Positions 5,684 through 25,014 of a stretch of DNA of 25,418 nt are shown here, in pieces. Positions within the stretch are counted from its first letter, which is position 1, and every line of letters begins with the position of its first letter. The stretch spans positions 1 through 25,418 of the IMG/VR virus record IMGVR_UViG_3300046837_000101; one strand, written 5' to 3'. Source of the DNA: a virus. The translations under genes were made by a program, and so were the position numbers. The notes under the pieces are model-generated. The model did no database searches and was not told where the DNA came from. It worked only from the letters and a program-made list of their open reading frames with translations.

Positions 5684-6009
5684 TGAGCGACACGGCGACG
5701 ATGGCCCCGGCGAACGGGCGCAAGCCGCTGCACGAGCGGGTGCCACTGGAGGCGATCACCGCCGACGCCAGGAAGGCATCACCAGGCAAGGTGATCCTCG
5801 GCCTGATCGGTGGCCTGATTTTCGCCATCGCCTGGCTGACCGCCAAGGCGTTCACTATGGTGTTCTTCGCGTTCGCCTGGTGCGCGTCGGCGGCGAAGAT
5901 GGGCTGGCGCACCGCCCGTGACCTGCCACTGAATCAGCCGGATGTCAGGGAACTGATAGCCGAGAACGATAGGCTGCGTGCCATGATCGACAGGTACCAG
6001 ATCGGATGA
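5683..6009 (+). CDS. Membrane protein with C-terminal coiled helix (108 aa)
   Basis: A hydrophobic stretch at about residues 37-71 (VILGLIGGLIFAIAWLTAKAFTMVFFAFAWCASAA) could make one long or two short membrane helices. The N-terminal 35 residues are soluble and charged. The C-terminus (VRELIAENDRLRAMIDRYQ) has a heptad-like Leu/Ile pattern fit for a short coiled coil. No family is recognised. Translation starts at ATG 5683 in a TGATG overlap, and the stop overlaps the next gene (ATGA, 6006-6009). A membrane role such as a holin is possible given the cysteine peptidase next door, but this is speculation. Confidence 0.75.
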   Translation: MSDTATMAPANGRKPLHERVPLEAITADARKASPGKVILGLIGGLIFAIAWLTAKAFTMVFFAFAWCASAAKMGWRTARDLPLNQPDVRELIAENDRLRAMIDRYQIG

Positions 6010-11112: not shown

Positions 11113-12426
11113 ATGGCCAGCGAAGTTACCAAGAGGCTGCGGGACCGGCGTCTCAACGTGTGGGAGCAGTGCAAGGCGCTCGCCGACACTGCCGCCACCG
11201 AGAACAGGGCATTTTCGGCAGAAGAGCAGGGTAAGTGGGATGTCCTGAACGAGGAAATGGACACCCTCGACACCCGCATCAAGTCCGCGCTTGACGCTGA
11301 GCAGCGCTCCGCCGAGGCCGACCAGGCGTTCAACCGCCTGCACGCCGACGCCGAGGGCAAGAAGATGGCGAAGGACCCGGCCGTCAAGATGCTCAACACC
11401 GAGCTGCGCAAGTTCCTGCTCGGCGACAGCCGGGGCAACGCGCCCGGTGGCGCCTTCGAGGTGTCCCGCCCGGACAACAGCCGGATCAACTGGAACTACG
11501 GCCCGGTCAACCTGGCCGAAGTCCGCAGGGCCGAGGCCGAGTACCGGACTCTGGTGTCCACGTCTGTCACCTCCGGTGGCAACCTGGTCCCGACCGACTT
11601 CTATGACCAGCTGATCGCGCACTTGATAGAAGTCTCGGGAATTCTGCAATGCGGCCCCACCGTGCTAAACACTGCCGGCGGCGAGAACCTGCAGATCCCG
11701 AAGACGACCGCGCACTCCTCGGTGAGCGCCGCAGCCGCCCAGACGGCAGCGCTGGCGGCGTCCGACCCCACGTTCGGCCTGATCACCCTCGGTGCCTTCA
11801 AGTACGGCATCCTGCTCCAGGTCGCCCGTGAACTGCTGGACGACTCCGGTGTGGACCTCGTCGGCTACCTGGCCATGCAGTCCGGCCGGGCGCTGGGCAA
11901 CAAGTTTGGTTCCGACCTGGTGACCGGCACCGGCACCACGATGCCGAACGGCCTGATGGCCACCTCCACGGTGGGTGTCACCGGCACCACGACCGGCAAG
12001 AGCGGCGCGGCCCAGTACAGCGACCTGGTCAACCTCGAATACTCGGTCATCGCCCCCTACCGTCAGTCGAAGTCCTGCTACTGGCTGGCGAGGGACGCGG
12101 CGATCGGCGGGTTCCGGCTGCTGCTCGACGGCCAGTCGCGGCCCATCTGGGAGCCCAGCATGGTTCTCGGGTCGCCTGACCTGCTGCTCGGCAAGCCACT
12201 GGTGGCGGACCCGTTCATGCCGGCGGTGGCCACTGGCGCCAAGTCGATCGCGTTCGGCGACTTCAGCCAGTTCTTCGTCCGCATCGTCGGCCCGGTCCGG
12301 TTCGAGCGGTCGGACGACTTCCTGTTCGGCACCGACCTGGTTGCCTTCCGGGCGATCATCCGTGGCGACGGCACGCTGGTTGACCAGACCGGCGCGATCA
12401 AGACATACCAGGGGCCGGCTACCTAA
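11113..12426 (+). CDS. Major capsid protein, HK97 fold
   Basis: The 437-aa length is typical. Residues 1-105 form a charged helical region (KRLRDRRLNVWEQCKALAD ... AEEQGKWDVLNEEMDTLDTRIKS) like the scaffolding delta domain removed by the prohead protease. The capsid body follows: LVSTSVTSGGNLVPTDFYDQLIAHL, ENLQIPKTTAHSSV, ITLGAFKYGILLQVARELLDDSGVDL, NGLMATSTVG, LLLGKPLVADPFMP, SIAFGDFSQFFVRIVGPVRFERSDD. This is the spine helix, E-loop and P-domain order of HK97-type coats. The start has AGGAGGAGCC just upstream. A strong hairpin follows the gene, in keeping with separate high-level expression. The protease and portal lie directly upstream, as usual. Confidence 0.95.
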   Translation: MASEVTKRLRDRRLNVWEQCKALADTAATENRAFSAEEQGKWDVLNEEMDTLDTRIKSALDAEQRSAEADQAFNRLHADAEGKKMAKDPAVKMLNTELRKFLLGDSRGNAPGGAFEVSRPDNSRINWNYGPVNLAEVRRAEAEYRTLVSTSVTSGGNLVPTDFYDQLIAHLIEVSGILQCGPTVLNTAGGENLQIPKTTAHSSVSAAAAQTAALAASDPTFGLITLGAFKYGILLQVARELLDDSGVDLVGYLAMQSGRALGNKFGSDLVTGTGTTMPNGLMATSTVGVTGTTTGKSGAAQYSDLVNLEYSVIAPYRQSKSCYWLARDAAIGGFRLLLDGQSRPIWEPSMVLGSPDLLLGKPLVADPFMPAVATGAKSIAFGDFSQFFVRIVGPVRFERSDDFLFGTDLVAFRAIIRGDGTLVDQTGAIKTYQGPAT

Positions 12427-12497: not shown

Positions 12498-13076
12498 ATG
12501 GCAACTTACGGCAGCAACAGCACCGAGGAGCCGGGCCAGTACCCGACCACGGAGTGGAGCGACTTCGGCCTGCCCGAGCAGAACTTCGGCTCAGGCGCTC
12601 CTGGCGGCTCGCCCACCTCCAGCGAGATCGACGTAGGTGCGACGAACGAGCCGGGGCAGTACCCATCGCGGGAGTCCTTCACGGGTGTCGCGCTTGGTGG
12701 TACGGGTGCCCCAGGTACGCAGGGTGTCCCGAACGAGGCGGGCACTGGTGAGCCGGCGATCGGTGGCGCGGCTGACACGATCGTGTTCTCCAAGACGACT
12801 TTCTACAAGTCGATGTATGAGCCGCAGGGCATGGAGCAGGGCTACGTCACCGAGACCGCGCACGACCAGGTCAGTGGCCCGGCCGACTGGACCCAGGCGA
12901 ACGACTACGGGTATGCGGCCCCAGCGGAGTACCAGATGCCGGGCGTAGCTGGCAACACGCCCACCCCGGGCAGCGGCCAGTTCCAGACCGGTGCGGGCAA
13001 TGTGATGTACGGCGGGCGGCTGAACGGCACCGGGCACACCAGCCAGCACCCGTCGTGGTCGGGGCCTGGTACCTGA
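12498..13076 (+). CDS. Gly/Ser/Thr/Pro-rich putative virion protein (192 aa)
   Basis: The start ATG follows AGGAGG (12486-12491) downstream of the capsid hairpin. The N-terminal half is low in hydrophobic residues and rich in Gly, Ser, Thr, Pro, Glu and Gln. It has an imperfect repeat: EPGQYPTTEWSDFG (about residues 11-24) and EPGQYPSRESFTG (about 51-63). The C-terminal half has a Tyr-rich patch (KTTFYKSMYEPQGMEQGYVTETAHDQ) and ends in a Gly/Thr tail. I recognise no family. The place right after the capsid gene suggests a head decoration or minor head protein. It is a natural candidate acceptor for the sugar-transfer genes downstream. Confidence 0.7.
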   Translation: MATYGSNSTEEPGQYPTTEWSDFGLPEQNFGSGAPGGSPTSSEIDVGATNEPGQYPSRESFTGVALGGTGAPGTQGVPNEAGTGEPAIGGAADTIVFSKTTFYKSMYEPQGMEQGYVTETAHDQVSGPADWTQANDYGYAAPAEYQMPGVAGNTPTPGSGQFQTGAGNVMYGGRLNGTGHTSQHPSWSGPGT

Positions 13077-13077
13077 C

Positions 13078-13308
13078 ATGGCGTCCCAGTTCGCACGCGC
13101 CGTAGCCAATGCTCAGGCTGGCTACGGCGGGCGCGGGCGGGATGGCTCGTTCCGTGAGGCGCACAGCCAGCAGCACACCGATGCGCTGGACCGGATGGAC
13201 ACCCATGAGCGGCGGCTCGCCGCGCTGGAAGCCCTGGACCCGTCCACCCTCCACGCCACCACGGGGGAGATAGAGAAGCCGGGTCCGCAGAATTTCGTGG
13301 AGACGTGA
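13078..13308 (+). CDS. Small protein with a central coiled helix (76 aa)
   Basis: The ATG at 13078 lies one base after the previous stop. The centre (REAHSQQHTDALDRMDTHERRLAALEAL) is a polar helix with heptad-like spacing, probably a short coiled coil. The N-terminus is Ala/Gly/Arg-rich (FARAVANAQAGYGGRGRDG). The end (TGEIEKPGPQNFVET) is likely extended. There is no known domain. It sits within four small genes after the capsid, so a head-associated role is inferred from position. Its stop overlaps the next ATG (TGATG). Confidence 0.7.
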   Translation: MASQFARAVANAQAGYGGRGRDGSFREAHSQQHTDALDRMDTHERRLAALEALDPSTLHATTGEIEKPGPQNFVET

Positions 13309-13595
13309 TGGAAGATCTCACCGGCAGGTTCATGTCGAACCTGGCCCCGTCATCAATGGGCGCGGGGAACACCACCGCCGACGACCGTAAGTGGTCCATG
13401 TCGGCGCCGGGCAGCCAGTCCGTCCTCCCGGTTGCGGACAAGATGGACCACCTGCCGCTCCCCGAGTTCTCCAACAGCACCCCGCTCCCTGTCGTGCACC
13501 CGGGCCAGCAGGAGCATGTCCGGTTCACTCACGGGAACCGTGGCAACGGCACCTTTGAAACGATCAGCATCGGCGGAACGTGGAAGGAAGTTTAG
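13308..13595 (+). CDS. Small Ser/Pro-rich protein of unknown function (95 aa)
   Basis: ATG 13308 is preferred over the GTG three bases earlier because it forms the TGATG overlap with the preceding stop. The product (MEDLTGRFMSNLAPSSMGAGNTTADDRKWSMSAPGS...PLPEFSNSTPLPVVHPGQQEHVRFTHGNRGNGTFETISIGGTWKEV) has no signal or membrane segment. Its C-terminus could form beta strands. It holds several Ser/Thr-rich patches. No homologous family comes to mind; a virion accessory role is inferred from its neighbours. Confidence 0.68.
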   Translation: MEDLTGRFMSNLAPSSMGAGNTTADDRKWSMSAPGSQSVLPVADKMDHLPLPEFSNSTPLPVVHPGQQEHVRFTHGNRGNGTFETISIGGTWKEV

Positions 13596-13597
13596 CC

Positions 13598-13783
13598 ATG
13601 CCCCAGCCCGTCTCGTCGCCCATCACCTCGACGCCGTCTGTGGACGGCCAGCCGTATGACGCCACCGCTGACGGCCCGGTCGGTCCCTGGGTGGCACTCG
13701 AAGACAACAGTGGCCCGGCGAGCCTGCAGGGTGGCCGGGTGACCGGCGACTTCGTGGACTCCGCGCCGTGGCGTCAGGTTTAG
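13598..13783 (+). CDS. Small protein of unknown function (61 aa)
   Basis: ATG 13598 has GGAAGGAAG about 8 nt upstream, so it is favoured over an in-frame ATG at 13580, which would overlap the previous gene. The sequence (MPQPVSSPITSTPSVDGQPYDATADGPVGPWVALEDNSGPASLQGGRVTGDFVDSAPWRQV) is Ser/Thr/Pro/Gly-rich and mostly extended. The end (GRVTGDFVDSAPWRQV) resembles the last strands of the preceding protein (TFETISIGGTWKEV), so the pair may be distant paralogues. The stop overlaps by two bases the stop of the convergent glycosyltransferase gene. Confidence 0.68.
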   Translation: MPQPVSSPITSTPSVDGQPYDATADGPVGPWVALEDNSGPASLQGGRVTGDFVDSAPWRQV

Positions 13784-14550
13784 CGCCTGCCCAGTTCGGT
13801 TAGCCGGCGGGTGAACGCCGGGTACCAGTCGATCTCTTCCCAGCCAGGCTGGCGCTGCGTGTCGTAGAGCTGCCTGGTGAACAGCTCATCGACGCCGATG
13901 CCCCACTTCTGTACCCAGCGGGCGAAGCATTCGGCGTCGTGGTATGGCCCGTTGAAGTTCTGCCGGGTTTCCAGCACCTCGCCGATCTTCGGTGCGCCAC
14001 GCCAGAACCGGTCCAGCCCAATGTCGTTGTGACGCATCTGCCAGACGTGCTCGTCGTGGACTGACAGCCGGTCCGGGCAGGTCTGCAGGGCACGCAGCTC
14101 GTAGTCGGCTTCGGGGCCGCCGATGGCGCGGAACCGCTCATCGAACCAGCCGGTGGCATTGAACCCGGCGAGTGACTGCAACTGGACCGTGTCGCCGTGC
14201 GGGGCGATGTAGGTGTCGTAGGCATCGGTGATCAGTTCGTGCCAGCCGGGCAGTACCACCACGTCGTCTTGTGACATCAGGCACCAGTTGCGGGTCTCGA
14301 ATGTGTGCCGCATGCACTGGTTCCAGCACCAGGCGATGCTGCCGGTTTCCCATGACTCCCGGAACATGTTCGGCCACCACTTCACCTGCGGGTAGTCGAG
14401 CCCGATCCCGCTGTAGTCCACGGTGGGGTCGTTGACGATGACGTTCACCGTCTCAAACGGAAACGAGTCCAGCCAGCCGCTGATCGTGGCGCGCAGCGTG
14501 CCCAGCCGCCGGAAGCTCACGATCCACAGGGATATCTCGTCAGGTGTCAC
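13780..14550 (-). CDS. GT-A-fold glycosyltransferase (GT2-like)
   Basis: The 256-aa protein begins MTPDEISLWIVSFRRLGTLRATISGW, a Rossmann-like opening as in GT2 enzymes. It has VIVNDPTVDYSG, then WCLMSQDDVVVLPGWHELI with the DD metal pair at 95-96, and later GWFDERFRAIGGPEADYELRALQ, the acceptor/catalytic region with an acidic pair. It would transfer a sugar from an NDP-sugar. The start GTG 14550 overlaps the preceding stop (GTGA); a GTG at 14562 is possible. It is the last gene of the leftward sugar operon and meets the capsid-side genes tail to tail with no space for a terminator. Confidence 0.82.
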   Translation of the reverse strand: MTPDEISLWIVSFRRLGTLRATISGWLDSFPFETVNVIVNDPTVDYSGIGLDYPQVKWWPNMFRESWETGSIAWCWNQCMRHTFETRNWCLMSQDDVVVLPGWHELITDAYDTYIAPHGDTVQLQSLAGFNATGWFDERFRAIGGPEADYELRALQTCPDRLSVHDEHVWQMRHNDIGLDRFWRGAPKIGEVLETRQNFNGPYHDAECFARWVQKWGIGVDELFTRQLYDTQRQPGWEEIDWYPAFTRRLTELGRR

Positions 14551-14780
14551 GGGTCCAGCCACTCGATCACGGTGCCGTATTCGGGGTGGCCGTGGACTTT
14601 CTCCAGGTCATCCCAGCTTGACCAGATCGAGTGCGAGCGGAATTCGGTGCGCCAGCGGACGCAGACGGTCCCATCGCTGAAAACGACACCCTCAAACTGA
14701 ACTTCATCCGGGGGGGCAGCCGTGCCCTGTTCGTAATATTCAGGCGGCGGATTGGGGCGGTAGCAGTGGAAGCGTCTCAT
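14547..14780 (-). CDS. Small actinophage-type protein (77 aa)
   Basis: The sequence (MRRFHCYRPNPPPEYYEQGTAAPPDEVQFEGVVFSDGTVCVRWRTEFRSHSIWSSWDDLEKVHGHPEYGTVIEWLD) has the VxFEGVVFSDGTVxVRWxTExRSxxxWxSxDD pattern. I associate it with a frequent small protein of actinobacteria and their phages; its function is unknown. The strand-rich centre and following helix suggest a compact beta-beta-alpha unit. ATG 14780 is chosen because it makes an ATGA overlap with the upstream stop; a longer reading from 14819 would enter the neighbouring gene. The stop overlaps the glycosyltransferase start (GTGA). Confidence 0.78.
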   Translation of the reverse strand: MRRFHCYRPNPPPEYYEQGTAAPPDEVQFEGVVFSDGTVCVRWRTEFRSHSIWSSWDDLEKVHGHPEYGTVIEWLDP

Positions 14781-16270
14781 AGCAGCTCCTCCAGCAGGGC
14801 GGCACCGCGTGCCACGCACACCTCATCGAGCGGTTCGGCGTGCAGCGGGGCGCAGTTCAGCAGGGACAGGGCGGCGATCACCATCACGTCATGCGGGATC
14901 TCACCGCCGAGCCATTCTCCCAGCGCGGCCATATGCTGTGGGCGTACCCGCCAGGGCCTGAAATCGCCCCGCCTGGCCCGCCCCCAGTGGACGATCATCC
15001 CGGCCACCAGTTTCGCCAGGTCGTAGCGCCGGTCACCCCAGCGCGTCTTGCCAGCGAAATCTTCCCGCCAGTCGATGCCGGTGAACGCGCCATCGGGGGA
15101 CACGATCACATTGCCGAGGTTGAAGTCGCCGTGGAACGTGACCGGCCGGCAGCCGCGTTCCAGCTCGCCCCACTTCACGCGGGCCACAGCATGCTGCGCC
15201 ACCTCACGCAGCCCCGGCCGCAGCATCGCCACCCGGGCGAGCGTCTTCCCCCGGTAGAACCGGTCACAGTCCGGCGCCGGGTTCAGTACCCGTACCGGAC
15301 GCCACAGGTCACGCTGCGCCCAGTCCAGCAGCCGGGGCACCAGATCAGAGTCACCCTCGGCGGCCTCATAGGCGGGGACGCCCGCCACATACTCGTAGGC
15401 GAACATGTGCGGCCGGGTACCGGTCAGCTTCGGCACGGCGGCGGCGATGTCACCCTGCCGCCGGACACGCCTGGCCAGTGAATCCTGATCTTCGCGGAAC
15501 TTGACCACACGCCCCCGCTCAGGCAGCACATAGGTCACCTCACCCGGCTTGACCCAGTCGTAACCAGAACGGGCCGCGACCGCCCTGGCGTAGGCCGTCT
15601 CGTCGCCAATGTCGGTCCAGCTGATCCGCCGTACAGACAGCGAGGCGAACCTGACCAGCTGGTCAAGCCCACCGGTCACCTGCCGCTCCCCGGCGAGCAG
15701 GCCCGAGGTGGTGATACCACCCCAGAAAGACGGCAGGTCACGGCGGGTGATCATCGCCAGCCCGGTGTAGGCATCACCCGCCGCTGGACCGGGCACCTTG
15801 TCGTAGATCGCATACGCCGCATGGGTGTTCGGGGAAGAGCTGATCCGGCACCAGCGTTCGGGTGCGGTGCCCGCCGGGATGGGCGCGACCCCTGCCCAGG
15901 ATTCCCCGCCGTGCCACAGCGCTTCATCGGCTGCCCACAGCGTGTCGCACGAGGCGAAGATCAGGTCATCGCCGCCCACTTCACTGCGGGCGGCGAGCAG
16001 CGAGGTGCCGGGGCCGCCGCGCGGCTTATCCCAGCCGGGCACGGGGACGAAGGTGATCTTGTGGTCAGGGTGGGCCAGGTCCAGGTAGTCCCGCACCTGC
16101 TCAGCGCGGTAGCCGGTGCAGACGATGATCCTCGCGCCAGGCGGGGCCAGGTCTATCTGGTGGGAGATGACAGCCCGGCCGTCGAGCGGCACCAGCGCCT
16201 TGTGCAGTGCGTCACCAGCCCGGCCCATCCTGGTGCCAGGACCGGCGGCGAGGATGACGAACGCGGTCAT
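14777..16270 (-). CDS. Bifunctional nucleotidyltransferase - APH/choline-kinase-like kinase fusion
   Basis: The N-terminal half (about 1-240) is a sugar or polyol nucleotidyltransferase: VILAAGPGTRMG (5-16, the NTP loop), HKALVPLDG with Lys24, and LIFASCDTLW with the metal-binding Asp. The C-terminal half (about 250-497) is an aminoglycoside-phosphotransferase/choline-kinase fold. Brenner's motif is FHGDFNLGNV (His380, Asp382, Asn387), the metal aspartate is in GIDW (Asp400), and DLAKL follows. LicC/LicA-type fusions that first phosphorylate a small alcohol or sugar and then activate it with CTP or another NTP have this domain pair. Here the substrate is unknown. The gene lies between a cupin and a small protein, overlapping both by 4 nt, so it is probably the activation step of the cassette. 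Confidence 0.85.
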   Translation of the reverse strand: MTAFVILAAGPGTRMGRAGDALHKALVPLDGRAVISHQIDLAPPGARIIVCTGYRAEQVRDYLDLAHPDHKITFVPVPGWDKPRGGPGTSLLAARSEVGGDDLIFASCDTLWAADEALWHGGESWAGVAPIPAGTAPERWCRISSSPNTHAAYAIYDKVPGPAAGDAYTGLAMITRRDLPSFWGGITTSGLLAGERQVTGGLDQLVRFASLSVRRISWTDIGDETAYARAVAARSGYDWVKPGEVTYVLPERGRVVKFREDQDSLARRVRRQGDIAAAVPKLTGTRPHMFAYEYVAGVPAYEAAEGDSDLVPRLLDWAQRDLWRPVRVLNPAPDCDRFYRGKTLARVAMLRPGLREVAQHAVARVKWGELERGCRPVTFHGDFNLGNVIVSPDGAFTGIDWREDFAGKTRWGDRRYDLAKLVAGMIVHWGRARRGDFRPWRVRPQHMAALGEWLGGEIPHDVMVIAALSLLNCAPLHAEPLDEVCVARGAALLEELL

Positions 16271-16626
16271 GCCCGGCCGTAATCGTCTTCGAGGCGGGTC
16301 GTGTCGGTGTCATCGTCGTAGGTGGACACTTCGAGGTAGGACAGCTCCCCGGTGACCCGGTGCGGCACGCCTGGCCTGATCCGCGCCATGCCGATGTGAC
16401 GTTCGGCACCCACCTCGATATAGCCGCTGCCGAACAGCACGATCAGCAGCTCGTCCTTGCGCTGATGCTGCTGCAGCGAGGTCCGGGAGCCTCTCGCCAC
16501 GAACATGTATTTGACCGTGAGGTCGTGACTGGGCGCGTCCAGCCAGTGCATGAACCCCCAGGGGCGCTCTTCGGTGTGGTAATTCTCCATCAGCGCGTCG
16601 AGCAGGTTAGCCGTGGGCGATGGCAT
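16267..16626 (-). CDS. Cupin, mannose-6-phosphate-isomerase-like (type II)
   Basis: The 119-aa protein is a single cupin: RPWGFMHWL (21-29), then SLQQHQRKDELLIVLFGSGYIEVG with the metal ligands His54 and Glu59, and RIRPGVPHRV with His89, followed by LEVST. RPWG...QxHxRxxE...GxPHR is the signature of the isomerase domain that converts mannose-6-phosphate and fructose-6-phosphate, seen at the C-terminus of bifunctional GDP-mannose pyrophosphorylases. As a free-standing domain it may isomerise another sugar phosphate. ATG 16626 has GGGAGG 9 nt upstream and overlaps the aldolase-like gene by 20 nt. The stop overlaps the kinase fusion start (ATGA). Confidence 0.85.
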   Translation of the reverse strand: MPSPTANLLDALMENYHTEERPWGFMHWLDAPSHDLTVKYMFVARGSRTSLQQHQRKDELLIVLFGSGYIEVGAERHIGMARIRPGVPHRVTGELSYLEVSTYDDDTDTTRLEDDYGRA

Positions 16627-17479
16627 CGCTGATCGCCTCCCGCACGTAGTTGTCGCTGTGCTTCGCCAGCACCCGCGTCACGGCAGGCGACTCCAGGTGG
16701 TAGCGCAGCCCGGCCCGCGACAGCACCAGCCTGGTGCCCTCACCGTCGAACCACCGCCGGTAGTCACCGGAGTAGTAGCCGATGTCGAGAATCTTCTCCC
16801 CTTCCTCCGCTGGCAGCAGATGCAGCCAGGCGTCGATCTCGACGTTGGCGAACTCGGGCGCCACGTTGTAGAACCCGGCCAGGTCATAGTTCTGCCGCCC
16901 GCCCAGCCAGTCCAGGTTGTGAGCCTTCACCGCCGTCTTGCCATAGGTGAGCGCGATCAGCGTCGCCTCGGCTGCGTCGATCAGGTGCCCGTATTGCCGG
17001 TCGGCCCAGATGTGGCCACCGAGCGCGGCGACCGCCGCCGATGGCTGGCATATGTCCAGGGCGTGTCCCAGCAGCTCATCCAGCCACCTCTGACTGTCGC
17101 GTTCCCCCCCTACCTCGATGCCGATCCTGTCGCCGTACCGTTCGCACAGCCGCTTCAGCTCGATGCACTGCATTCCCTTGTCCAGGTGGCACACGTCCAG
17201 ATGCAGCACGTCGAACCCCGCGTCAACGTCAGCATCGAGAGCAAGTAGCCAGTTGTCATCGGGATCGCCGTTCTGGTAAGGGCCACCGTGGTCGCGGACC
17301 ACGTCAGTCACGCCGCCGGACAGTTTCTTCACCGCCTCCACCAGTGTCTTGCTGGTGTAGCCCGTGTAGCCGGGTGTGAATTCGCCGACCTGCCGCCGCG
17401 AGGCGACGATCTGCTCGACCTGCAGCCTCGCTGCCTCTTCCACCACGCGCCGCGACGCCGCACCCACGCACAGTTTCAT
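16607..17479 (-). CDS. TIM-barrel aldolase-like protein related to GatZ/KbaZ
   Basis: The 290-aa protein has GVTDVVRDHGGPYQNG (56-71), then a helix and AGFDVLHLDVCH (87-98), CIELKRLCERYGDRIGIEVGGERD (105-128), HALDICQPSAAVAALGGHIW, and ALTYGKTAVKAHNLDWLGG. The DHxGP...GFxxxHLDxx order recalls the non-catalytic subunit family of tagatose-1,6-bisphosphate aldolase (GatZ/KbaZ). Those proteins are about 420 residues, so this one is shorter. A sugar-phosphate aldol role is inferred. ATG 17479 follows the stop of the 44-aa gene by 4 nt (TGAAGCGATG), so the two are probably coupled. I rate the superfamily well and the exact reaction poorly. Confidence 0.7.
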   Translation of the reverse strand: MKLCVGAASRRVVEEAARLQVEQIVASRRQVGEFTPGYTGYTSKTLVEAVKKLSGGVTDVVRDHGGPYQNGDPDDNWLLALDADVDAGFDVLHLDVCHLDKGMQCIELKRLCERYGDRIGIEVGGERDSQRWLDELLGHALDICQPSAAVAALGGHIWADRQYGHLIDAAEATLIALTYGKTAVKAHNLDWLGGRQNYDLAGFYNVAPEFANVEIDAWLHLLPAEEGEKILDIGYYSGDYRRWFDGEGTRLVLSRAGLRYHLESPAVTRVLAKHSDNYVREAISDAIAHG

Positions 17480-17483
17480 CGCT

Positions 17484-17618
17484 TCACCCGCATGGCATCG
17501 GCTCCTCGCATTCGCCGCGAGTGGACGGGCAGGATTTCACCGGCCCGCTGCACCAGCACTGGTGTCCCCCCGCATGCCCTTCGTTCAGAACACAGAAATG
17601 CTTGAGGGTGTGCCGCAC
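17484..17618 (-). CDS. Cys/His-rich 44-aa protein heading the leftward sugar operon
   Basis: GTG 17618 opens a 44-codon frame: MRHTLKHFCVLNEGHAGGHQ, then CWCSGPVKSCPSTRGECEEP and MPCG. It has six cysteines and four histidines, arranged C...NEGHxGGHxCWC...C...C...C, reminiscent of tiny zinc-binding phage proteins with a CxLxxGHxGxH knuckle. Codons end mostly in G or C. The overlapping alternative frame (17476-17718) has poorer codon ends. A TACTAT hexamer lies 7 nt before the GTG and there is no Shine-Dalgarno, which fits a leaderless start. The stop lies 4 nt before the aldolase-like ATG. A regulatory or chaperone role is possible, but nothing shows it. Confidence 0.6.
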   Translation of the reverse strand: MRHTLKHFCVLNEGHAGGHQCWCSGPVKSCPSTRGECEEPMPCG

Positions 17619-17625
17619 AGACGCG

Positions 17626-17631
17626 ATAGTA
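17626..17631 (-). promoter_or_regulatory. -10 element of the leftward sugar operon
   Basis: TACTAT on the reverse strand ends 7 nt before GTG 17618, the distance expected for a leaderless mRNA. No convincing -35 is visible; the region 17-18 nt upstream reads ACTACC/GACTAC. The intergenic space is only 44 nt, so this promoter and the rightward one must overlap. Confidence 0.5.
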
Positions 17632-17650
17632 GCGCAGGCCACCCACACGG

Positions 17651-17656
17651 TAGTCT
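17651..17656 (+). promoter_or_regulatory. -10 element of the rightward sugar operon
   Basis: TAGTCT lies 6 nt before GTG 17663 with no Shine-Dalgarno in between. The -35 position (17628-17633, AGTAGC) overlaps the leftward -10, so the two operons may compete for polymerase. Confidence 0.5.
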
Positions 17657-17662
17657 GGCCCG

Positions 17663-18334
17663 GTGGAAGCCACCGAGCTGGTCATGGTCTGCCCGTCCCG
17701 TGGCCGGCCCGGCAACATCGTGGAACTGACGGAAGCCTGGAAGCAGACCGGTGCCCAGGCGCACCTGATGGTCGTGGTGGATGATGACGACCCCGAGCTG
17801 GACGCCTACCTGTATCTCGACGTAGATCTGCACATCATCTGCGAGCCCCGCCGTCTCGGGCCGATCCTCAACTCGGTCATGCCCCCGATCGCCCAGCACG
17901 GCGGCGCGGTCGGGTTCCTGGGTGATGATCACCGGCCCCGCACTCCCGGCTGGGACAAGGCGCTGGTGGACGCGCTGCCCGGCGTCGCCTACGGCAACGA
18001 CCTGTTCCAGGGGCGCAATCTGCCGACCGCCGTGGCCATGTCGGCGGGGATCGTGCAGGCGCTGGGATATTTCGTGCCACCAGGGCTGATGCACCTGTAC
18101 TTCGATGACTTCTGGCTGACCCTCGGGCGCGAGCTGGGCTCCCTCACCTACCTGGAGGATGTGATCATTGAGCACATGCACCCGGTGGCGGGTAAGGCCA
18201 GCTGGGACGAGGGATATGTGCGGGCCAACTCGATGGAGCAGTTCAACACCGACTCTGCCGCCTACCAGCGGTTCATGACTACCCAGTGGCCGGGCGACCT
18301 GGCCCTGGTGCGGACATCAAGGTGGCGCGAGTGA
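17663..18334 (+). CDS. GT-A-like glycosyltransferase (223 aa)
   Basis: The protein starts MEATELVMVCPSRGRPGNIVELTEAW, a strand-loop typical of glycosyltransferase-like phage proteins. It continues with LMVVVDDDDPELDAY (acidic metal site around residues 38-44), RLGPILNSVMPPIAQHGGAVGFLGDDHRPRTPGWDKAL (a second GDDH motif with a WDKAL helix), and LMHLYFDDFWLTLGRELG. The pair of acidic motifs fits a GT-A fold transferring sugar from an NDP donor. Acceptor and donor are unknown. The start is GTG 17663, behind TAGTCT with no Shine-Dalgarno. It is the first gene of a rightward operon and overlaps the next by 4 nt (GTGA). Confidence 0.78.
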   Translation: MEATELVMVCPSRGRPGNIVELTEAWKQTGAQAHLMVVVDDDDPELDAYLYLDVDLHIICEPRRLGPILNSVMPPIAQHGGAVGFLGDDHRPRTPGWDKALVDALPGVAYGNDLFQGRNLPTAVAMSAGIVQALGYFVPPGLMHLYFDDFWLTLGRELGSLTYLEDVIIEHMHPVAGKASWDEGYVRANSMEQFNTDSAAYQRFMTTQWPGDLALVRTSRWRE

Positions 18335-18957
18335 GTGAGTGGAAACTGTTCGAGGGGGATGCCCCGCACTTCTCTTCGCCGGAATTCTTCGCCGCCCACC
18401 CGTGGGTGCCGCCAGAGAATCAGGCTGGCCACGCCCAGCGGCAGGCGATGGTCGGCGGGATGGTCAGTTACATACTCACCCAGCGGCCGGACATCACCTC
18501 CCTGACTGACCTTGGCTGCGGCGACGGCAGCCTCCTGCACCTCCTGCGCGGCCTGCCAGTGAAGGCGTGGGGTTACGACCTGGGTGAGGCCAACCTGGAA
18601 CGGGCCGCCGAACTGGGGCTTGACGTGCGCCGGGGCGACATTTTCAGCGGCCTGGAATACGGGGACATGCTGATCGCCTCCGAAGTGGTGGAGCACCTGG
18701 CGCAGCCCGAGGCGTTCCTGCGGGGCCTGCCTGACTGCAAGGCGCTGATCCTGTCATCCCCCTCGGCGGAAACCGGTGAATGGCATTACGAGCATCACGC
18801 ATGGGCGTGGGACATGCGCGGCTACGCCGATCTGGTGACCCGCTGCGGCTGGCGGGTGCTGGAACACCGTGAATGCGACGGCGGGGTCAACTGGCACGGT
18901 GGCGTCACGCGCCCGCAGCGGTTCCAGGCCATCCACGCGCACCGGCCGCCCCGGTGA
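18331..18957 (+). CDS. SAM-dependent methyltransferase (class I, 208 aa)
   Basis: Motif I is SLTDLGCGDGSLLHLL (SAM-binding Gly-rich loop), followed by AWGYDLGEANLERAAELG (acidic end of strand 2) and DMLIASEVVEHLAQPEAFL (post-motif EHL as in UbiG/Methyltransf_11 types). A typical late motif is DLVTRCGWRVLEHREC. It probably methylates a small molecule or sugar hydroxyl or amine rather than DNA, because no DNA-methylase NPPY-type motif is present. GTG 18331 is chosen for the 4-nt overlap with the previous stop. The N-terminus (MSEWKLFEGDAPHFSSPEFF) is non-conserved. It is the first of three consecutive methyltransferases. Confidence 0.85.
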   Translation: MSEWKLFEGDAPHFSSPEFFAAHPWVPPENQAGHAQRQAMVGGMVSYILTQRPDITSLTDLGCGDGSLLHLLRGLPVKAWGYDLGEANLERAAELGLDVRRGDIFSGLEYGDMLIASEVVEHLAQPEAFLRGLPDCKALILSSPSAETGEWHYEHHAWAWDMRGYADLVTRCGWRVLEHRECDGGVNWHGGVTRPQRFQAIHAHRPPR

Positions 18958-19493
18958 CGCGGGTGCGGCTGCGGCCCGCCTGGAGCCAGGACCAGCTGAT
19001 GGCGTTCTGCCCCCGGCCCCACGACCACACGCGCTGGCCCGATCACATCGCCAGAGTGGCGGACACGATCCAGCTGGCCCTCGACATGGGCGTCCCCAGC
19101 GTCGTCGCCGATCTGGCGTGCGGCGATGCGGCGATCGGGCGGGCGCTCGCCCCGGACAAGCTGATCCTCGGTGATTTCGCGGCCGGCTATGAGATCACCG
19201 GCATGATCGAGGACACTATTGACATGATCGGGCACGTCGGCATGTTCATCTGCTCGGAGACAGCTGAGCACCTGGATGACCCCGACGCGATGATGGTGAA
19301 GATCCGGGAGAAAGCCGACTCGCTGGTGTTCTCCACCCCGCTCGCCGAGTTCACGCCCATCAACCCGCAGCATTACTGGGGCTGGGACCACGACGGGGTG
19401 AGAGAAATGCTGGAAGCCGCCGGCTGGGTGCCGGTAATACAGCGGGATGTGCTGCACCCGCTCGCCCAGTTCCAGCTGTGGGGGTGCCGGTGA
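18954..19493 (+). CDS. Methyltransferase-fold protein, possible paralogue of the upstream gene (179 aa)
   Basis: VVADLACGDAAIGRALAPDKLILGDF is a motif I, although the loop is ACGDAAIG rather than the usual GxGxG. GMFICSETAEHLDDPDAMM corresponds to the EVVEHL region of the neighbour, and VREMLEAAGWVPVIQRDV closes the fold. The length is at the short end for class I methyltransferases. The overlap of layout with the gene before it suggests an old duplication with divergence. GTG 18954 overlaps the upstream stop (GTGA), and the next gene overlaps this one in the same way. Substrate unknown; a sugar-tailoring step is inferred from the operon. Confidence 0.75.
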   Translation: MTRVRLRPAWSQDQLMAFCPRPHDHTRWPDHIARVADTIQLALDMGVPSVVADLACGDAAIGRALAPDKLILGDFAAGYEITGMIEDTIDMIGHVGMFICSETAEHLDDPDAMMVKIREKADSLVFSTPLAEFTPINPQHYWGWDHDGVREMLEAAGWVPVIQRDVLHPLAQFQLWGCR

Positions 19494-20245
19494 ACTTCAG
19501 CTCACACAATGTCGCCCTGCCAGGCGGGACGCAGACCCTCCCGGGCCAGCTGCTGGTAGCGGAGTCCGGCATATGCCGGGTCGCGCTGAGCGCCCTGGGG
19601 CTGGAGTTCGGCTACGGGCCGCGTTCTGATATCAGGGTCGCGGACCTGGGCTGCCTGGAAGGCGGGTTTACCGCCGAGTTCGCCCGCGCCGGGTATGACG
19701 CGACCGGCATCGAGGCCAGGCAGGAAAACTATGGCAATGCGGTGTGGCTGAAAGACATCCTCGGGCTGGAGAACCTGCACTTCATCCACGGTGATGTCCG
19801 TGAGGTGCTGCCAGGCGTGTCGTTCGACGCCGTGTTCTGCTCTGGCCTGCTCTATCACCTCGATGCACCAGTCGCGTTCCTGAACCTGCTGGGCCAGGTC
19901 ACCCAGCGCATGCTGATCCTGCACACGCACTTCTCGATGGAAAACGGGCACCCGGAAAGTGTCCACAACCCCACTGGAACTTGGTGTGAGCCCTTCCAGT
20001 CACAGCATGAAGGCCGCACCGGGCACTGGTGCCACGAAGAGGACGACCGGTGGGCGAGCTTCGGCAACACCAAATCGTTCTGGCTGTGCAAAGACGACCT
20101 GCTGCTCAGCCTCCACGAGGCCGGGTTCACGCGCGTGTCCGAAGTTCGAGGGCCTGACTGGCACAACACGGCACGTTTCACGACAGTCCAGGGGTCGGGC
20201 GGCGCCTTCCCCGACCATGGCATGTTCGTGGCGGTCAAGCCGTGA
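19490..20245 (+). CDS. SAM-dependent methyltransferase (251 aa)
   Basis: Motif I is RVADLGCLEGGFTAEFARAGYDATGIEAR, a variant with LEGG where most have GxGxG, of the kind found in the DUF1698/FkbM-like neighbourhood of sugar and natural-product methyltransferases. VSFDAVFCSGLLYHLDAPVAFL is the post-I segment with a clear GLLYHLD. A Cys/His/Trp-rich insertion (TGTWCEPFQSQHEGRTGHWCHEEDDRWASFGNTKSFWL) follows and may shape the substrate site. GTG 19490 is picked for its GTGA overlap with the previous gene; an earlier GTG at 19478 is possible. It most likely modifies a sugar or lipid-linked intermediate. Confidence 0.83.
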   Translation: MNFSSHNVALPGGTQTLPGQLLVAESGICRVALSALGLEFGYGPRSDIRVADLGCLEGGFTAEFARAGYDATGIEARQENYGNAVWLKDILGLENLHFIHGDVREVLPGVSFDAVFCSGLLYHLDAPVAFLNLLGQVTQRMLILHTHFSMENGHPESVHNPTGTWCEPFQSQHEGRTGHWCHEEDDRWASFGNTKSFWLCKDDLLLSLHEAGFTRVSEVRGPDWHNTARFTTVQGSGGAFPDHGMFVAVKP

Positions 20246-21117
20246 AGGCGCTGGTGACAGGCCATTGCGGCTTCGTCGGCTGGCATTTCAAGACCCGGCT
20301 GGAAGCTGATGGCTGGGAGGTGGACGGCTGCGACATCGCCGCCACCAATCAGCGTGACGCCCGGGACCTGTTCCGGCATGCCGTCCGCCGTTACGACCTG
20401 GTGGTGCATTGCGCTGCGGTCGTCGGTGGCCGCCACACGATCGAAAACGCGCCGCTCGACCAGGCGGTCAACCTCGAACTCGACGCGGGCCTGTTCCGGT
20501 GGGCGCTGCGCACCCGCCCCGGCCGGGTGATCTACCTATCCTCTTCCGCCGCTTACCCGGAGCACTTCCAGCGCAATGGCCAGGCGGTGCGGCTCAGTGA
20601 GGACATGATCGACCTGGATGCGCCGCGCCTCCCGGATGAGCTTTACGGCTGGGTGAAGCTGACAGGTGAGCGGCTGGCCCGGCTCGCCCGGCACGAGGGA
20701 CTGCCGGTGACGGTGGTGCGCCCATTCTCGGGCTACGGCGAGCACCAGGACACCGACTACCCGTTCGGCGCGTTCGCTGACCGTGCCCGCCGCCATGAAG
20801 ACCCGTTCACCATCTGGGGCGACGGGCAGCAGGCCCGCGACTTCGTTCATGTGGATGACGTGGTGGGTGCCACCCTGGCTGTGGCGGAAGCGGGCATCGA
20901 GGAGCCTGTCAATATCGGCTGGGGCGAGCCGGTGACGATGCTGACCCTGGCGCACCTGTTCACCAGGGCGGCCGGTTACACGCCACGATTTAAACTGAAG
21001 AAGACCGCGCCGGCTGGGGTTAACTACCGGGTCTGTGACCCGGCCCGGATGCGCAAGCTTTACCAGCCGCGCGTCACCCTCGATGAGGGCATACGCCGTG
21101 CCCTGGGAGAGTTATGA
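20242..21117 (+). CDS. NAD-dependent epimerase/dehydratase (extended SDR)
   Basis: The 291-aa protein begins MKALVTGHCGFVGWHF with the GxxGxxG NAD site. It has DLVVHCAAVVGGRHTI, the catalytic serine region VIYLSSSAAYPE (100-105), and the YxxxK pair in LYGWVK (Tyr135, Lys139). TVVRPFSGYGEHQDTDYPFGAF, IWGDGQQARDFVHVDDVV and VNIGWGEPVTM are classic GDP/UDP/dTDP-sugar epimerase and dehydratase segments. It would act on an NDP-sugar made by the nucleotidyltransferase of the divergent operon. The precise reaction (epimerase, 4,6-dehydratase or reductase) cannot be told from sequence alone. GTG 20242 overlaps the previous stop (GTGA); the next gene overlaps by ATGA. Confidence 0.9.
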   Translation: MKALVTGHCGFVGWHFKTRLEADGWEVDGCDIAATNQRDARDLFRHAVRRYDLVVHCAAVVGGRHTIENAPLDQAVNLELDAGLFRWALRTRPGRVIYLSSSAAYPEHFQRNGQAVRLSEDMIDLDAPRLPDELYGWVKLTGERLARLARHEGLPVTVVRPFSGYGEHQDTDYPFGAFADRARRHEDPFTIWGDGQQARDFVHVDDVVGATLAVAEAGIEEPVNIGWGEPVTMLTLAHLFTRAAGYTPRFKLKKTAPAGVNYRVCDPARMRKLYQPRVTLDEGIRRALGEL

Positions 21118-21734
21118 ACCCGCTGGTCTCGGTCATCAGCCCGACCTGGCAGAGGCACGAGTGGCTGTTTGACCGCTGCATCGCCTCGGTGAAAGCGCAG
21201 GAGTATTCACCCATCGAGCATGTGATCGTCTGCGACGGCCCCGACCCGGAACTGGCGGAACTGATCGGCCAGATGGAGATGACGGCAGGCTATTCGCTGA
21301 TCTTCGAGCAGATGCCCCCCAATCCAGACCCACGGTGGGGGACACGTGCCCGGCTGCGCGGCCTGGAACTGGCCAACGGGGGACTGATCGCCTACCTCGA
21401 TGACGATGATTCCTACCGGCCAGACCACTGCTCCCAGCTGGTGCGGGCACTGGAACGCCACCCCGAAGTGGGCTTCGCCTACACCCAGATGGCCAGCCAC
21501 GGCGGCGTCATAGACGGGGCGGCCCTGGCTATCATCGGCTCAGGTGACCTCGGCCCGTGCGCCATCGGCACACCCATGATCATGCACCGGCGGGAACTGC
21601 TGGAGATCTCCACCTGGGGGCCGCCCGACGCGATGGAGGACTGGAGGCTGGTGGACCGGTGGGTGGAGCGGGGCGTCAAATCCGAGTTCGTGCCGTGGGT
21701 GACGGTGGATGTGTGGCCAAGTGCCTACCGCTGA
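21114..21734 (+). CDS. Glycosyltransferase family 2
   Basis: The 206-aa protein opens PLVSVISPTWQRHEWLFDRCIASVKAQEYSPIEHVIVCDGPD, the canonical GT2 N-terminus. The metal-binding stretch YLDDDDSYRPDH (95-106) follows a GxRARLRGLELANGGLIA helix. The C-terminal part (GTPMIMHRRELLEI...DAMEDWRLVDRWVERG) has the typical ED pair of the catalytic base region. There is no membrane segment, so it is a soluble transferase for an NDP-sugar. It is the sixth gene in the rightward chain and overlaps the epimerase by 4 nt. After it the chain breaks with an inverted-repeat region. Confidence 0.9.
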   Translation: MNPLVSVISPTWQRHEWLFDRCIASVKAQEYSPIEHVIVCDGPDPELAELIGQMEMTAGYSLIFEQMPPNPDPRWGTRARLRGLELANGGLIAYLDDDDSYRPDHCSQLVRALERHPEVGFAYTQMASHGGVIDGAALAIIGSGDLGPCAIGTPMIMHRRELLEISTWGPPDAMEDWRLVDRWVERGVKSEFVPWVTVDVWPSAYR

Positions 21735-21738
21735 TGCC

Positions 21739-21836
21739 GTGAAGGCCGATGGGCCGGTAAGGGAAGGTGCCCGGTTGCACCCCGGGGTAAGTGGTTTGCC
21801 AGCAGACAGGCCCATGGTCCCGCCTTCCGCCTTCAC
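21739..21836 (+). repeat. Nested inverted repeats around the start of the GT4-like gene
   Basis: GTGAAGGC (21739-21746) pairs with GCCTTCAC (21829-21836), and ATGGGCC (21749-21755) pairs with GGCCCAT (21809-21815), so the ATG at 21814 would lie inside a stem. A competing GGAAGG/CCTTCC pair is also possible. It may be a regulatory leader limiting translation of the transferase, or a trace of an insertion. Confidence 0.4.
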
Positions 21837-22851
21837 CTCATCGGTGTGGGGCATCCATGATGCCCAGGCTGAAGGCAACCCCCTGCCCACAGGCTGCGGA
21901 TTCTTCCGGGTCAAGCTGCCTCTCGATCAGCTGGCCGCCCACGGATGGAAGGTGCGCTACCAGGCGTTCACCCCTCCCCCCGAGGTGGCGGACTACAAGC
22001 TGATCACCGCTGAGCGGCTGGACCGCCCGCAGGTGCTCGGGGCCTGGCGGCGGCTGCGGCAGGGCCACCGGCTCGCCTATGAGATAGACGACGACGTGTG
22101 GAACATCGACGTGACCAACTTCAGCGCCTACAGCACGTACTCGCGGCTCGCGGTGCTCGACGCGGTTGAGAATTCAATCATCACCTCCGACCTGGTGACC
22201 GTCACTACCGAGCCGCTGGCCGAGGCAGTCCGGGACCATACCAGCCATCCCAACGTGAAGGTGATCGGGAACTACATCCCGCAGCACCTCCTCACACTGG
22301 AACGTCCCCGGCGTAAGGAAGTGACGATCGGCTGGACCGGCGGCGCGAGCCACGCCATGGACATGGCCATGATCGCCACCACCGTGCGCCAGGTTCTCGA
22401 CCGCGACCCCAGCCTGCGGCTGCACATCGTGGGAGTGGACTACCGGCCCACCCTCGGTCACAACCACGCCCGGCACACCCGGTGGGTGGAGGACCCCGCC
22501 GTCTTCTCCCAGCACCTGGACCAGTACCTGGATTTCGACATCGGCCTCGCGCCGCTCGCATCCACCAGGTTCAACGAATCCAAGAGCCACCTGAAAGCCC
22601 TCGAATACGCGGCGATGGGCATCCCTGTCGTCGCCTCAGACTTCGGCCCCTACCCAGGGTTCGTCATCGACGGGGTGACCGGGTTCCTGGTCCGCAGCAA
22701 GAGCGAATGGCGGGACCGTATCCGCGAGCTGGTGGCCGACGCTGACCTGCGTGAGAAGATGGGCGCTGCCGGACGTGAGCTGGCTGCCCAGCATACGATT
22801 GAGGGCAACTGGCATCGCTGGGCCGCTGCCTATGAGGGAGTTCTGACGTGA
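21814..22851 (+). CDS. Glycosyltransferase with GT-B fold (GT4/GT1-like)
   Basis: The 345-aa protein has GCGFFRVKLPLDQLAAHGWKVRYQ, EIDDDVWNID and SDLVTVTTEPLAEAVRDH in the N-terminal Rossmann domain. The C-terminal domain has VTIGWTGGASHAMDM, LRLHIVGVDYRP, DIGLAPLASTRFNESKSHLKALEYAAMGIPVVASDFGPYPGFVIDGVTGFLV and REKMGAAGREL. The last run holds the ExGIPVVA-like donor-binding signature of GT4. ATG 21814 is selected because codon third positions are poor between 21739 and 21813; in-frame GTGs at 21709 and 21739 exist, so the start is uncertain. The stop overlaps the next GTG (GTGA). It probably adds a sugar in the decoration pathway. Confidence 0.85.
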   Translation: MVPPSAFTSSVWGIHDAQAEGNPLPTGCGFFRVKLPLDQLAAHGWKVRYQAFTPPPEVADYKLITAERLDRPQVLGAWRRLRQGHRLAYEIDDDVWNIDVTNFSAYSTYSRLAVLDAVENSIITSDLVTVTTEPLAEAVRDHTSHPNVKVIGNYIPQHLLTLERPRRKEVTIGWTGGASHAMDMAMIATTVRQVLDRDPSLRLHIVGVDYRPTLGHNHARHTRWVEDPAVFSQHLDQYLDFDIGLAPLASTRFNESKSHLKALEYAAMGIPVVASDFGPYPGFVIDGVTGFLVRSKSEWRDRIRELVADADLREKMGAAGRELAAQHTIEGNWHRWAAAYEGVLT

Positions 22852-23129
22852 AAGTAAAAATGATCCAGCAGATGAGCGGCCCCCGCTACGACGGCCGGGA
22901 CTGGCCAGACTACGGGGCTGTGATCGAAGTCCCCGACGATGAAGGCCGGGATCTGTGTGCTGGGGGCCTCGCGGTGCCAGTGGCGGAGGAGCGCAAGGTG
23001 GAGACCGCCGCGCCACCGCCTGACCCTGCCGTAGAGGTGCGGGCGGAGCCAGCCCTCGCGGAAGGTGAGGCGGAGCCGGTGAAGCGCGGCCCCGGCCGGC
23101 CTCCAGGCAGCACTAACAAGCCGAAGTGA
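22848..23129 (+). CDS. Small head-region protein with AT-hook-like tail (93 aa)
   Basis: The start MKVKMIQQMSGPRYDGRDWPDYGAVIEVPDDEGRDLCAGGLAVPV is a small beta-rich module frequent in actinophage head regions. It is followed by an Ala/Pro/Glu-rich linker and a basic end, EPVKRGPGRPPGSTNKPK. RGPGRPPG is the core of an AT-hook, which binds the minor groove of AT-rich DNA. The pattern, a short domain plus a GRP tail, occurs in other phage small proteins near head-tail connector genes. Its job is unknown. GTG 22848 overlaps the previous stop, so this gene was carried into the same transcript as the glycosyltransferases. Confidence 0.75.
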   Translation: MKVKMIQQMSGPRYDGRDWPDYGAVIEVPDDEGRDLCAGGLAVPVAEERKVETAAPPPDPAVEVRAEPALAEGEAEPVKRGPGRPPGSTNKPK

Positions 23130-24294: not shown

Positions 24295-25014
24295 ATGGAC
24301 CTGGAACAGCTGAAGCTGTCCCTCACTGGGATCAGCGGCGAAGACCCGTGCATCCCGGTACCCGGCAACGGCCACCGCAGCGAGTTCAGCCCGGCTGACC
24401 GTGCCCGTGGCGCGGACTGGCCAGCGCACGCCCCGACGATGATCGGGCTGGAACGGCTGGGCAACATCCAGGAGTGCGTGGAGAAGATCCTCGCCGACGA
24501 CGTGCCCGGTGACCTGATCGAGACCGGGGCATGGCGCGGCGGGGCCTGCATCTTCATGCGCGCCCTGCTCAAGGCGCATGAAGTCACCGATCGCACCGTA
24601 TGGGTGGCTGACTCGTTCGCGGGTATGCCTGCCCGGGAGCACGGGGGCGAGGACGGCTGGTTCGACATGCCCGAGCTGGCCGTGCCGCTCGATGAGGTGA
24701 AGGCGAATTTCGCGGGCTACGGGCTGCTCGATGAGCAGGTCCAGTTCCTGCCCGGCTGGTTCGATGAGACGCTGGCCACCGCGCCTATCGAGAAGCTAGC
24801 GCTGCTGCGGCTCGACGGTGACCTGTACTCTTCGACCATGACCGCGCTGGAAGCCCTGTACCCGAAGGTGTCACCTGGCGGGTTCGTCATCATTGACGAC
24901 TGGTGGTTCAAATCCTGCCGCGAGGCGGTGACCGAATACCGGGCGAAGCACGGCATCACCACGCCTATCTGGCAGGCTGACTACGGCTACTGGCGGGTGC
25001 CTTCCGCACAATGA
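24295..25014 (+). CDS. TylF-family O-methyltransferase
   Basis: The 239-aa protein matches the TylF/MycF macrocin 3''-O-methyltransferase family. It has GDLIETGAWRGGACIFMRALL (72-92, SAM-binding acid plus G-rich loop), VWVADSFAGMPAREHG, LLRLDGDLYSSTMTALEALYPKVSPGGFVIIDDWW (170-204, metal-binding Asp run) and ACxEA-like SCREAV. These Mg-dependent enzymes methylate hydroxyls of sugars or macrolides, so a role on a sugar made by the upstream cassette is sensible. The ATG directly follows the TAG of the virion-protein gene with no ribosome site, so translation is probably coupled. The 3' end overlaps the convergent methyltransferase gene by 50 nt. Confidence 0.88.
   Translation: MDLEQLKLSLTGISGEDPCIPVPGNGHRSEFSPADRARGADWPAHAPTMIGLERLGNIQECVEKILADDVPGDLIETGAWRGGACIFMRALLKAHEVTDRTVWVADSFAGMPAREHGGEDGWFDMPELAVPLDEVKANFAGYGLLDEQVQFLPGWFDETLATAPIEKLALLRLDGDLYSSTMTALEALYPKVSPGGFVIIDDWWFKSCREAVTEYRAKHGITTPIWQADYGYWRVPSAQ

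Follow-up and report, generated by a model that had tools for sequence, protein, structure and literature searches.

The window analysed here, IMG/VR virus record IMGVR_UViG_3300046837_000101 at its full length of 25,418 bases (probably a genome fragment), carries a cassette of sugar-synthesis, methyltransferase and glycosyltransferase (GT) genes. Sequence comparison identifies this cassette as an insertion between the capsid gene and the next gene of the head block, and its slot as an exchangeable hot spot common to the whole phage clade. De novo synthesis and transfer of a dedicated methylated nucleotide sugar, already proposed in the initial annotation of this DNA, finds good support in the enzyme set and in a core trio of enzymes kept in 7 phage sequences. 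Most likely (we put the probability at roughly 0.58), the cassette glycosylates virion proteins with such a sugar and is exchanged in a serotype-like manner, acceptor and sugar both being predicted from the genes. The cassette and its flanks are as follows.

11113–12426, plus strand: HK97-type major capsid protein, left constant flank (phrog_10, 3e-61)
12498–13076, plus strand: cysteine-free protein rich in S, T, G, P, Q and N and carrying the motifs EPGQYP and GAPG; candidate for a glycan acceptor or a head decoration protein
13305–13595, plus strand: conserved small protein of the left constant flank, with homologs in about 20 relatives
13598–13783, plus strand: conserved 61-aa open reading frame (ORF) bordering the exchanged unit on the left, family F0 in relatives
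13785–21117, unstranded: exchanged unit, unrelated DNA in its place in L021 (blastn)
13780–14562, minus strand: GTm, putative GT-A-like glycosyltransferase, from a QDD motif and context; 75–91% identity in relatives
14777–16270, minus strand: nucleotidyltransferase (NTase)–kinase fusion (Pfam NTP_transf_3, E 5e-16, and APH, E 1e-7)
16267–16626, minus strand: cupin, phosphomannose isomerase (PMI)-like (PF01050, E 9e-6, 26.4 bits against a cut-off of 23.6)
16607–17479, minus strand: GatZ/KbaZ-like triosephosphate isomerase (TIM)-barrel enzyme, probable sugar-phosphate C4-epimerase (AlphaFold2/Foldseek and residue alignment)
17480–17662, unstranded: putative divergent promoter region between the operons, placed by position in the intergenic gap
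17663–18334, plus strand: GTa, GT-A glycosyltransferase by AlphaFold2/Foldseek (predicted local distance difference test, pLDDT, 90)
18286–18957, plus strand: MT1, class I S-adenosylmethionine (SAM) methyltransferase (PF13489, 3e-7)
18873–19493 as ORF, likely start 18999, plus strand: MT2, methyltransferase-like, grouping with MT1 by BLAST
19478–20245, plus strand: MT3, class I SAM methyltransferase (PF08241, 2e-8)
20242–21117, plus strand: NAD-dependent epimerase/dehydratase of the short-chain dehydrogenase/reductase (SDR) type, GDP-fucose-synthase-like (PF01370, 5e-35; NF047922, 93 bits, under its cut-off)
21114–21734, plus strand: GT2, family 2 glycosyltransferase, right constant flank, kept where the cassette is swapped (PF00535, 1e-14)
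21709–22851, plus strand: GT1, GT-B glycosyltransferase (group 1; GT1/GT4), right constant flank (PF13692, 2e-12; phrog_7162, 2e-53)
22848–23129, plus strand: small marker protein after the cassette, directly behind the capsid gene in cassette-free prophages

Behind the capsid gene, two divergent operons thus encode the GatZ-like protein, the PMI-like cupin, the NTase–kinase fusion, the NAD epimerase, three methyltransferase-like and four GT-like proteins. All these classes had been named in the initial annotation, and we recovered each at or near its assigned place by Pfam, fold, BLAST or motif. Two of the four GT-like proteins were recognised by Pfam, one by fold and one by motif; GTm has no family match, GTa no confident Pfam match and MT2 no Pfam match of its own. 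In Foldseek, GTa comes closest in fold to GTs of viruses, among them Pas34 from Actinoplanes phage phiAsp2; by sequence it shares 40–44% identity with annotated glycosyltransferases from cultured Streptomyces phages. The extent of the cassette, initially drawn as 13780–22851, had to be narrowed: the enzymes do lie there, but the exchanged unit spans 13785–21117, and GT2 and GT1 (21114–22851) belong to the constant flank.

Capsid proteins 60–100% identical to that of the window occur in 80 IMG/VR loci, while identity is below 32% in cultured phages among the matches listed. Close relatives were found only among uncultivated viruses, and the group consists of soil viruses. A scan of bacterial genomes returned 44 related loci, nearly all in Actinomycetota (host genomes include Streptomyces, Pseudonocardia, Actinomadura, Arthrobacter and one Micromonosporaceae metagenome-assembled genome, MAG), so the phage hosts are very probably actinobacteria.

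In 29 prophages, almost all from Actinomycetota, the starts of the capsid and marker genes lie 1.2–1.8 kb apart, with the marker directly behind the capsid gene, and a per-gene profile search found no cassette gene in the downstream sequence examined. These prophages supply the comparison, suggested in the initial annotation, with phages in which the capsid gene and the following gene are adjacent. They also agree with its view that the cassette separates two sides of the head module. The name 'connector' for the far side did not hold up: the 22848–23129 protein has weak matches to phrog_2322 (4e-5) and DUF7302, and its relatives match phrog_2616 (unknown function). We rejected that label and retained the gene as a positional marker.

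The set used for the capsid tree comprised 82 loci, 45 with cassette-type genes and 37 typed as having none; loci that lacked a cassette gene and had less than 6 kb of downstream sequence were left out. For relatives, gene calls came from a home-made ORF scorer, and cassette types were assigned with hidden Markov models built from the same locus set. All 37 cassette-free loci, some of which have no visible marker gene, came from bacterial genomes, and cassette genes were found in none of them (0/37). Cassette-type genes were present in every viral locus of the set and additionally in a Micromonosporaceae contig (L107). In a sub-branch that includes L055, L062 and L094, the capsid gene is followed first by the marker and then by the cassette, which means that the slot can lie on either side of the marker. 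Just before the cassette, loci of this sub-branch encode a conserved protein of 58–62 aa with strongly hydrophobic segments (F18; L062:13902-14084).

The content of the slot is replaced as a block. The window and L021, whose capsid is 92% identical, share 77% DNA identity up to 13784, none to 21117 and 82% from 21118, the start of GT2 (blastn); in L021, 4.6 kb of different sugar genes stand in place of 13785–21117. Since homology stops at 13784 and resumes at 21118, 7.3 kb are cleanly replaced.

Such switching is repeated across the clade. By Pfam families, type A cassettes carry GatZ and the fusion; type B an epimerase and a sugar C-methyltransferase, often with a cupin or UDP-glucose dehydrogenase; type C a C-methyltransferase and GDP-mannose dehydratase; type D a methyltransferase and an SDR; and type E includes a haem-peroxidase-like gene; further types exist. 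On the capsid tree (built by a quick method, with support from the Shimodaira–Hasegawa-like approximate likelihood ratio test, SH-aLRT, in place of a bootstrap), the carriers form one clade (43 rows, SH-aLRT 100), within which 4 changes of type A, 7 of B, 5 of C and 4 of D are needed. Additionally, the capsid gene and terminal GTs of L094 are those of another sub-branch (its nearest locus there, L056, lacks the GatZ–cupin–NTase/kinase trio); despite these flanks, L094 carries the window-type GatZ, cupin, fusion, GTm and epimerase. We rejected a single ancestral insertion behind every cassette: the carriers are one clade, but their content has switched many times.

Two observations concern individual loci. 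An animal-haem-peroxidase-like protein (PF03098) is encoded in the slot behind the capsid gene in L066 (L066:11727-13544) and also in L064, L068, L070 and L080. On the contig from the Micromonosporaceae MAG, a type D cassette that includes an FAD-dependent oxidoreductase (DAO) lies between the capsid gene and the marker (L107:4351-9620); this contig is a host lead for the phage clade.

Searched by sequence, the GatZ-like protein matches neither Pfam (PF08013 included) nor the Protein Data Bank, and we classified it by fold and alignment instead. Its AlphaFold2 model (pLDDT 82, 7 sequences) is a TIM barrel that Foldseek matches to class II aldolases (E values down to 2e-6), with tagatose 4-epimerase 9lhw scoring highest by query TM-score (0.60) among the matches listed. 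Asp87, His88, Glu171 and His257 (E. coli GatZ numbering) are kept in 7/7 aligned phage sequences. Model-based predictions make these the catalytic Asp and the metal ligands of GatZ, and E. coli GatZ and KbaZ epimerise fructose-6-phosphate to tagatose-6-phosphate (PMC11907403). Like these enzymes, the phage protein combines a TIM barrel with an aligned catalytic Asp and His/Glu/His metal site; unlike them, it has 290 rather than 420 aa and does not lie beside GatY. An actinobacterial homolog, matching the phage protein at 94 bits, reaches PF08013 at 41.9 bits and lies beside a PMI-like cupin and a GT. Together with the fold and the kept active-site residues, this makes C4-epimerase-type chemistry likely. 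The first reading as an aldolase had the superfamily right, but the protein is better read as its C4-epimerase-type member.

The cupin matches the C-terminal domain of phosphomannose isomerase. Over both its domains, the fusion enzyme is homologous to ORF053c and ORF052c of phage RB69 (hhalign probability 97%), which have been proposed to act in UDP-arabinose synthesis for DNA glycosylation (PMC6024577). The GatZ–cupin–NTase/kinase trio is conserved in 7 distinct phage sequences. A haloacid dehalogenase (HAD)-type phosphatase adjoins it in L028 and L097, with weak Pfam support below the cut-off, and L095 has a similar-looking protein without a Pfam match in that position; no HAD-type phosphatase was found in the window.

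Among 50,697 cultured-phage records, the GatZ-like protein had no match, and the fusion enzyme had one full-length match (26%, in a single-cell marine virus) and five partial ones. GatZ matches occurred in 11 of 397 actinobacterial-phylum genomes, ten of them weak, so that no recent donor was found there and we dropped a recent host origin. One actinobacterial locus (L167:5336-13108, G189) holds a GatZ-like gene (PF08013), a PMI-like cupin, a GT and a transglutaminase-like gene in one operon, with an additional aminotransferase-like gene identified by eye; it is possibly an uncharacterised sugar or natural-product cluster.

The enzymes suggest the following route. The GatZ-like enzyme would epimerise a host ketose phosphate at C4, and the PMI-like cupin would convert the product to an aldose. 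The kinase–nucleotidyltransferase fusion would form the sugar-1-phosphate and then charge it to a nucleoside diphosphate (NDP)-sugar, while the HAD phosphatase found beside the trio in relatives may strip a second phosphate. The SDR and the methyltransferases would tailor the NDP-sugar, and the constant GT2/GT1 pair together with the cassette GTs would attach it to virion proteins during head making. As acceptors, the capsid protein and its S/T/G/P-rich neighbour come first into consideration. Near-identical phages would swap the entire block for one encoding another sugar, and their particle surfaces would thereby vary like serotypes. The order of the reactions is our proposal, and a benefit might lie in altered adsorption or in protection from host or soil factors.

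Whether the virion or the host surface is modified had been left open in the initial annotation; three features favour the virion. The cassette sits in the late head module. The S/T-rich protein family, whose 42 members average 18.7% serine plus threonine and contain no cysteine, is present in 38/45 cassette-type loci and 0/37 others, counts that come from loci which are not phylogenetically independent. Finally, the cassette shows no sign of a membrane-bound enzyme, an argument against a host glycan made for export: over 19 residues, the hydropathy of every cassette enzyme in the window stays below 1.6. Among 442 distinct proteins behind the capsid gene, the few strongly hydrophobic ones are small transmembrane proteins, one N-terminally anchored protein of 350 aa and a few unassigned or spurious ORFs; none is a sugar enzyme or GT, and no membrane flippase, polymerase or lipid-linked GT is among them. 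As a precedent, PMC11256854 reports glycans covalently bound to the capsid of mycobacteriophage Che8.

Several results count against virion glycosylation by this pathway. Where E. coli GatZ has Cys20, Glu44 and Lys279, the phage sequences have Ala, Val/Ile and Asn, and the substrate of the phage enzyme may therefore differ. The S/T-rich protein is unrecognised in 7/45 cassette-type loci, and we gave up the idea of an obligatory cassette partner. As the carriers form one clade, the contrast between loci with and without a cassette is essentially one evolutionary event. Furthermore, the trio of L095 and L097 lies near C5 DNA methylase-like and thymidylate-synthase-family genes, with a dUTPase-family gene in L095, a setting that would suit DNA as the acceptor.

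Sugar placed on phage DNA as a hypermodified base against restriction, as with arabinosyl-hydroxymethylcytosine in RB69, would make the capsid-side position incidental. DNA is a real rival acceptor because of the two-domain homology of the fusion to the RB69 proteins, and GTa has a very weak match to the TET-associated GT family (PF20691). We rejected membership in that family, as 11.9 bits compare with a cut-off of 27.5 and only 2/7 members match (best E 0.21). The thymidylate synthase/hydroxymethylase family is absent from the window and from the 55–190 kb contigs of cassette-bearing relatives; by record, which may be incomplete, a hydroxymethylase of this family is absent from G000, G001, G002 and G006–G009 and present in G003 and G005. 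A search of 12 records for TET/JBP gave no match, with control genomes equally silent. L095 and L097, for their part, lack recognisable counterparts of GTm, GTa, GT2 and GT1 as well as the capsid-side arrangement, and a different protein of 482 aa stands beside their trio. For the window we regard DNA modification as improbable.

We consider it unlikely that the cassette alters the host cell surface, either a cell-wall polymer or a glycolipid, in infected or lysogenic cells and in this way blocks superinfection or changes a receptor. The authors of PMC7029224 gave this interpretation to a hypervariable island of pelagimyophages that is rich in GTs and lies in their structural region, envelope polymers can be fed by GTs and NDP-sugars, and a receptor change would also be compatible with serotype-like switching. 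On the other side stand the missing membrane-bound flippase, polymerase or GT, hydrophobic proteins in relatives that are not sugar enzymes, a place among head genes beside the capsid rather than in a lysogeny or moron position, and prophage relatives in bacterial genomes that mostly lack the cassette. We regard it as very improbable that the cassette is a moron or serves auxiliary metabolism, yielding for instance a soluble glycoside and having no acceptor of its own on the particle: the actinobacterial cluster of GatZ, cupin, GT and aminotransferase-like genes does resemble a secondary-metabolite locus, but four GTs, constant flanking GTs, a fixed capsid-side position across the clade and the co-occurring low-complexity protein of the head region all argue against this reading.

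The trio-bearing loci of L095 (9555-18997) and L097 (9401-17504) deserve a separate mention as a candidate new DNA glycosylation system. In both, the trio lies near replication-type genes, the unassigned 482-aa protein, a C5 DNA methylase-like gene and, on the same contig, a thymidylate-synthase-family gene; L095 has dUTPase_2, and L097 a deaminase-like gene identified by eye.

Known systems share parts of this arrangement. Che8 and its cluster F1 relatives are, like the window phage, actinobacterial siphophages with phage-encoded GTs and, in Che8-type phages, covalent capsid glycans; the F1 relative described in PMC11256854 has its GTs close to the 3′ genome end and not in the head module, and neither a dedicated donor-synthesis and methylation cassette nor cassette exchange is described in that paper. 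The host recognition cluster of pelagimyophages and cyanomyophages likewise combines GTs and sugar enzymes in a hypervariable island of the structural region, but these phages are T4-like with Gram-negative hosts, and their island contains tail fibres and lies between VrlC and gp14 (PMC7029224); the window has sugar genes only, placed between the capsid gene and the next head gene and replaced as a single block. The UDP-arabinose module of RB69 pairs a homologous nucleotidyltransferase and APH-type kinase with sugar-phosphate isomerases, which are of the SIS type and located near DNA polymerase and a dCMP-hydroxymethylase-like gene (PMC6024577), whereas the window has GatZ and a cupin in a head module and no hydroxymethylase was found in it. 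In Streptomyces phage Zuko, genes for a UDP-glucose dehydrogenase and for a GT1 homolog (31% identity) immediately precede the terminase, portal and capsid genes, but these are two genes only, without GatZ, cupin, fusion enzyme or methyltransferases. Bacterial capsule and O-antigen loci also have constant flanks (here GT2/GT1) around an exchangeable sugar-synthesis centre; unlike them, the window encodes neither a flippase or polymerase nor a membrane-anchored GT.

As a rule, glycosylation in phages is deduced from a handful of glycosyltransferases that act on host sugars. Phage sugar genes, capsid glycosylation and variable GT islands are already known; a literature search of limited scope returned no complete donor-synthesis and methylation block exchanged as a unit at the capsid gene. 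The clade described here seems to produce sugars of its own and to exchange entire pathways at a fixed capsid-side slot, much as bacteria do with capsule loci. Tentatively, and with considerable doubt, one may picture a phage-head serotype system in which a conserved slot exchanges complete donor-sugar pathways as single blocks between near-identical phages, with GatZ–cupin–NTase/kinase as a portable module serving the glycosylation of virion proteins in one clade and of DNA in another. If so, particle coats would vary by gene exchange, with effects on adsorption, soil persistence and antibody recognition, and unusual sugar-nucleotide enzymes could be drawn from the slot. With prophage relatives that lack the cassette and sister phages that have swapped it, the idea can be tested directly.

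The remainder of the window, with a G+C content of 65–69% and no tRNA found in its 25,418 bases, follows the order C5 DNA methylase and HNH gene, terminase, portal, protease, HK97-type capsid and cassette. The C5 cytosine DNA methylase upstream of the terminase lies at 1611–2432 (PF00145), and the gene between terminase and portal (6006–6899) has a weak match to papain-family cysteine proteases (PF00112, E 0.002). Three further features lie outside the cassette.

10504–10989, plus strand: small protein in the protease–capsid interval, possibly GT-A-like by motif and context
24295–25014, plus strand: TylF-family sugar O-methyltransferase (PF05711, 5e-88)
24965–25417, minus strand: methyltransferase-like ORF truncated at the contig end (weak Methyltransf_24 match, E 0.0016), with a full-length homolog in L005

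The last two correspond to the pair of additional methyltransferases initially annotated downstream of the cassette, of which TylF is certain and the second a weak family match. The 10504–10989 protein has no match in Pfam, PHROG or NCBIfam; it shares 44% identity with a segment of a 424-aa protein that L005 encodes downstream of TylF and that itself weakly matches Methyltransf_24. The closest relative, L019, has two additional genes between protease and capsid gene (L019:1624-2810), one with weak tail-fibre/collagen-like matches and the other with a weak GT match (phrog_14775, E 0.0014).

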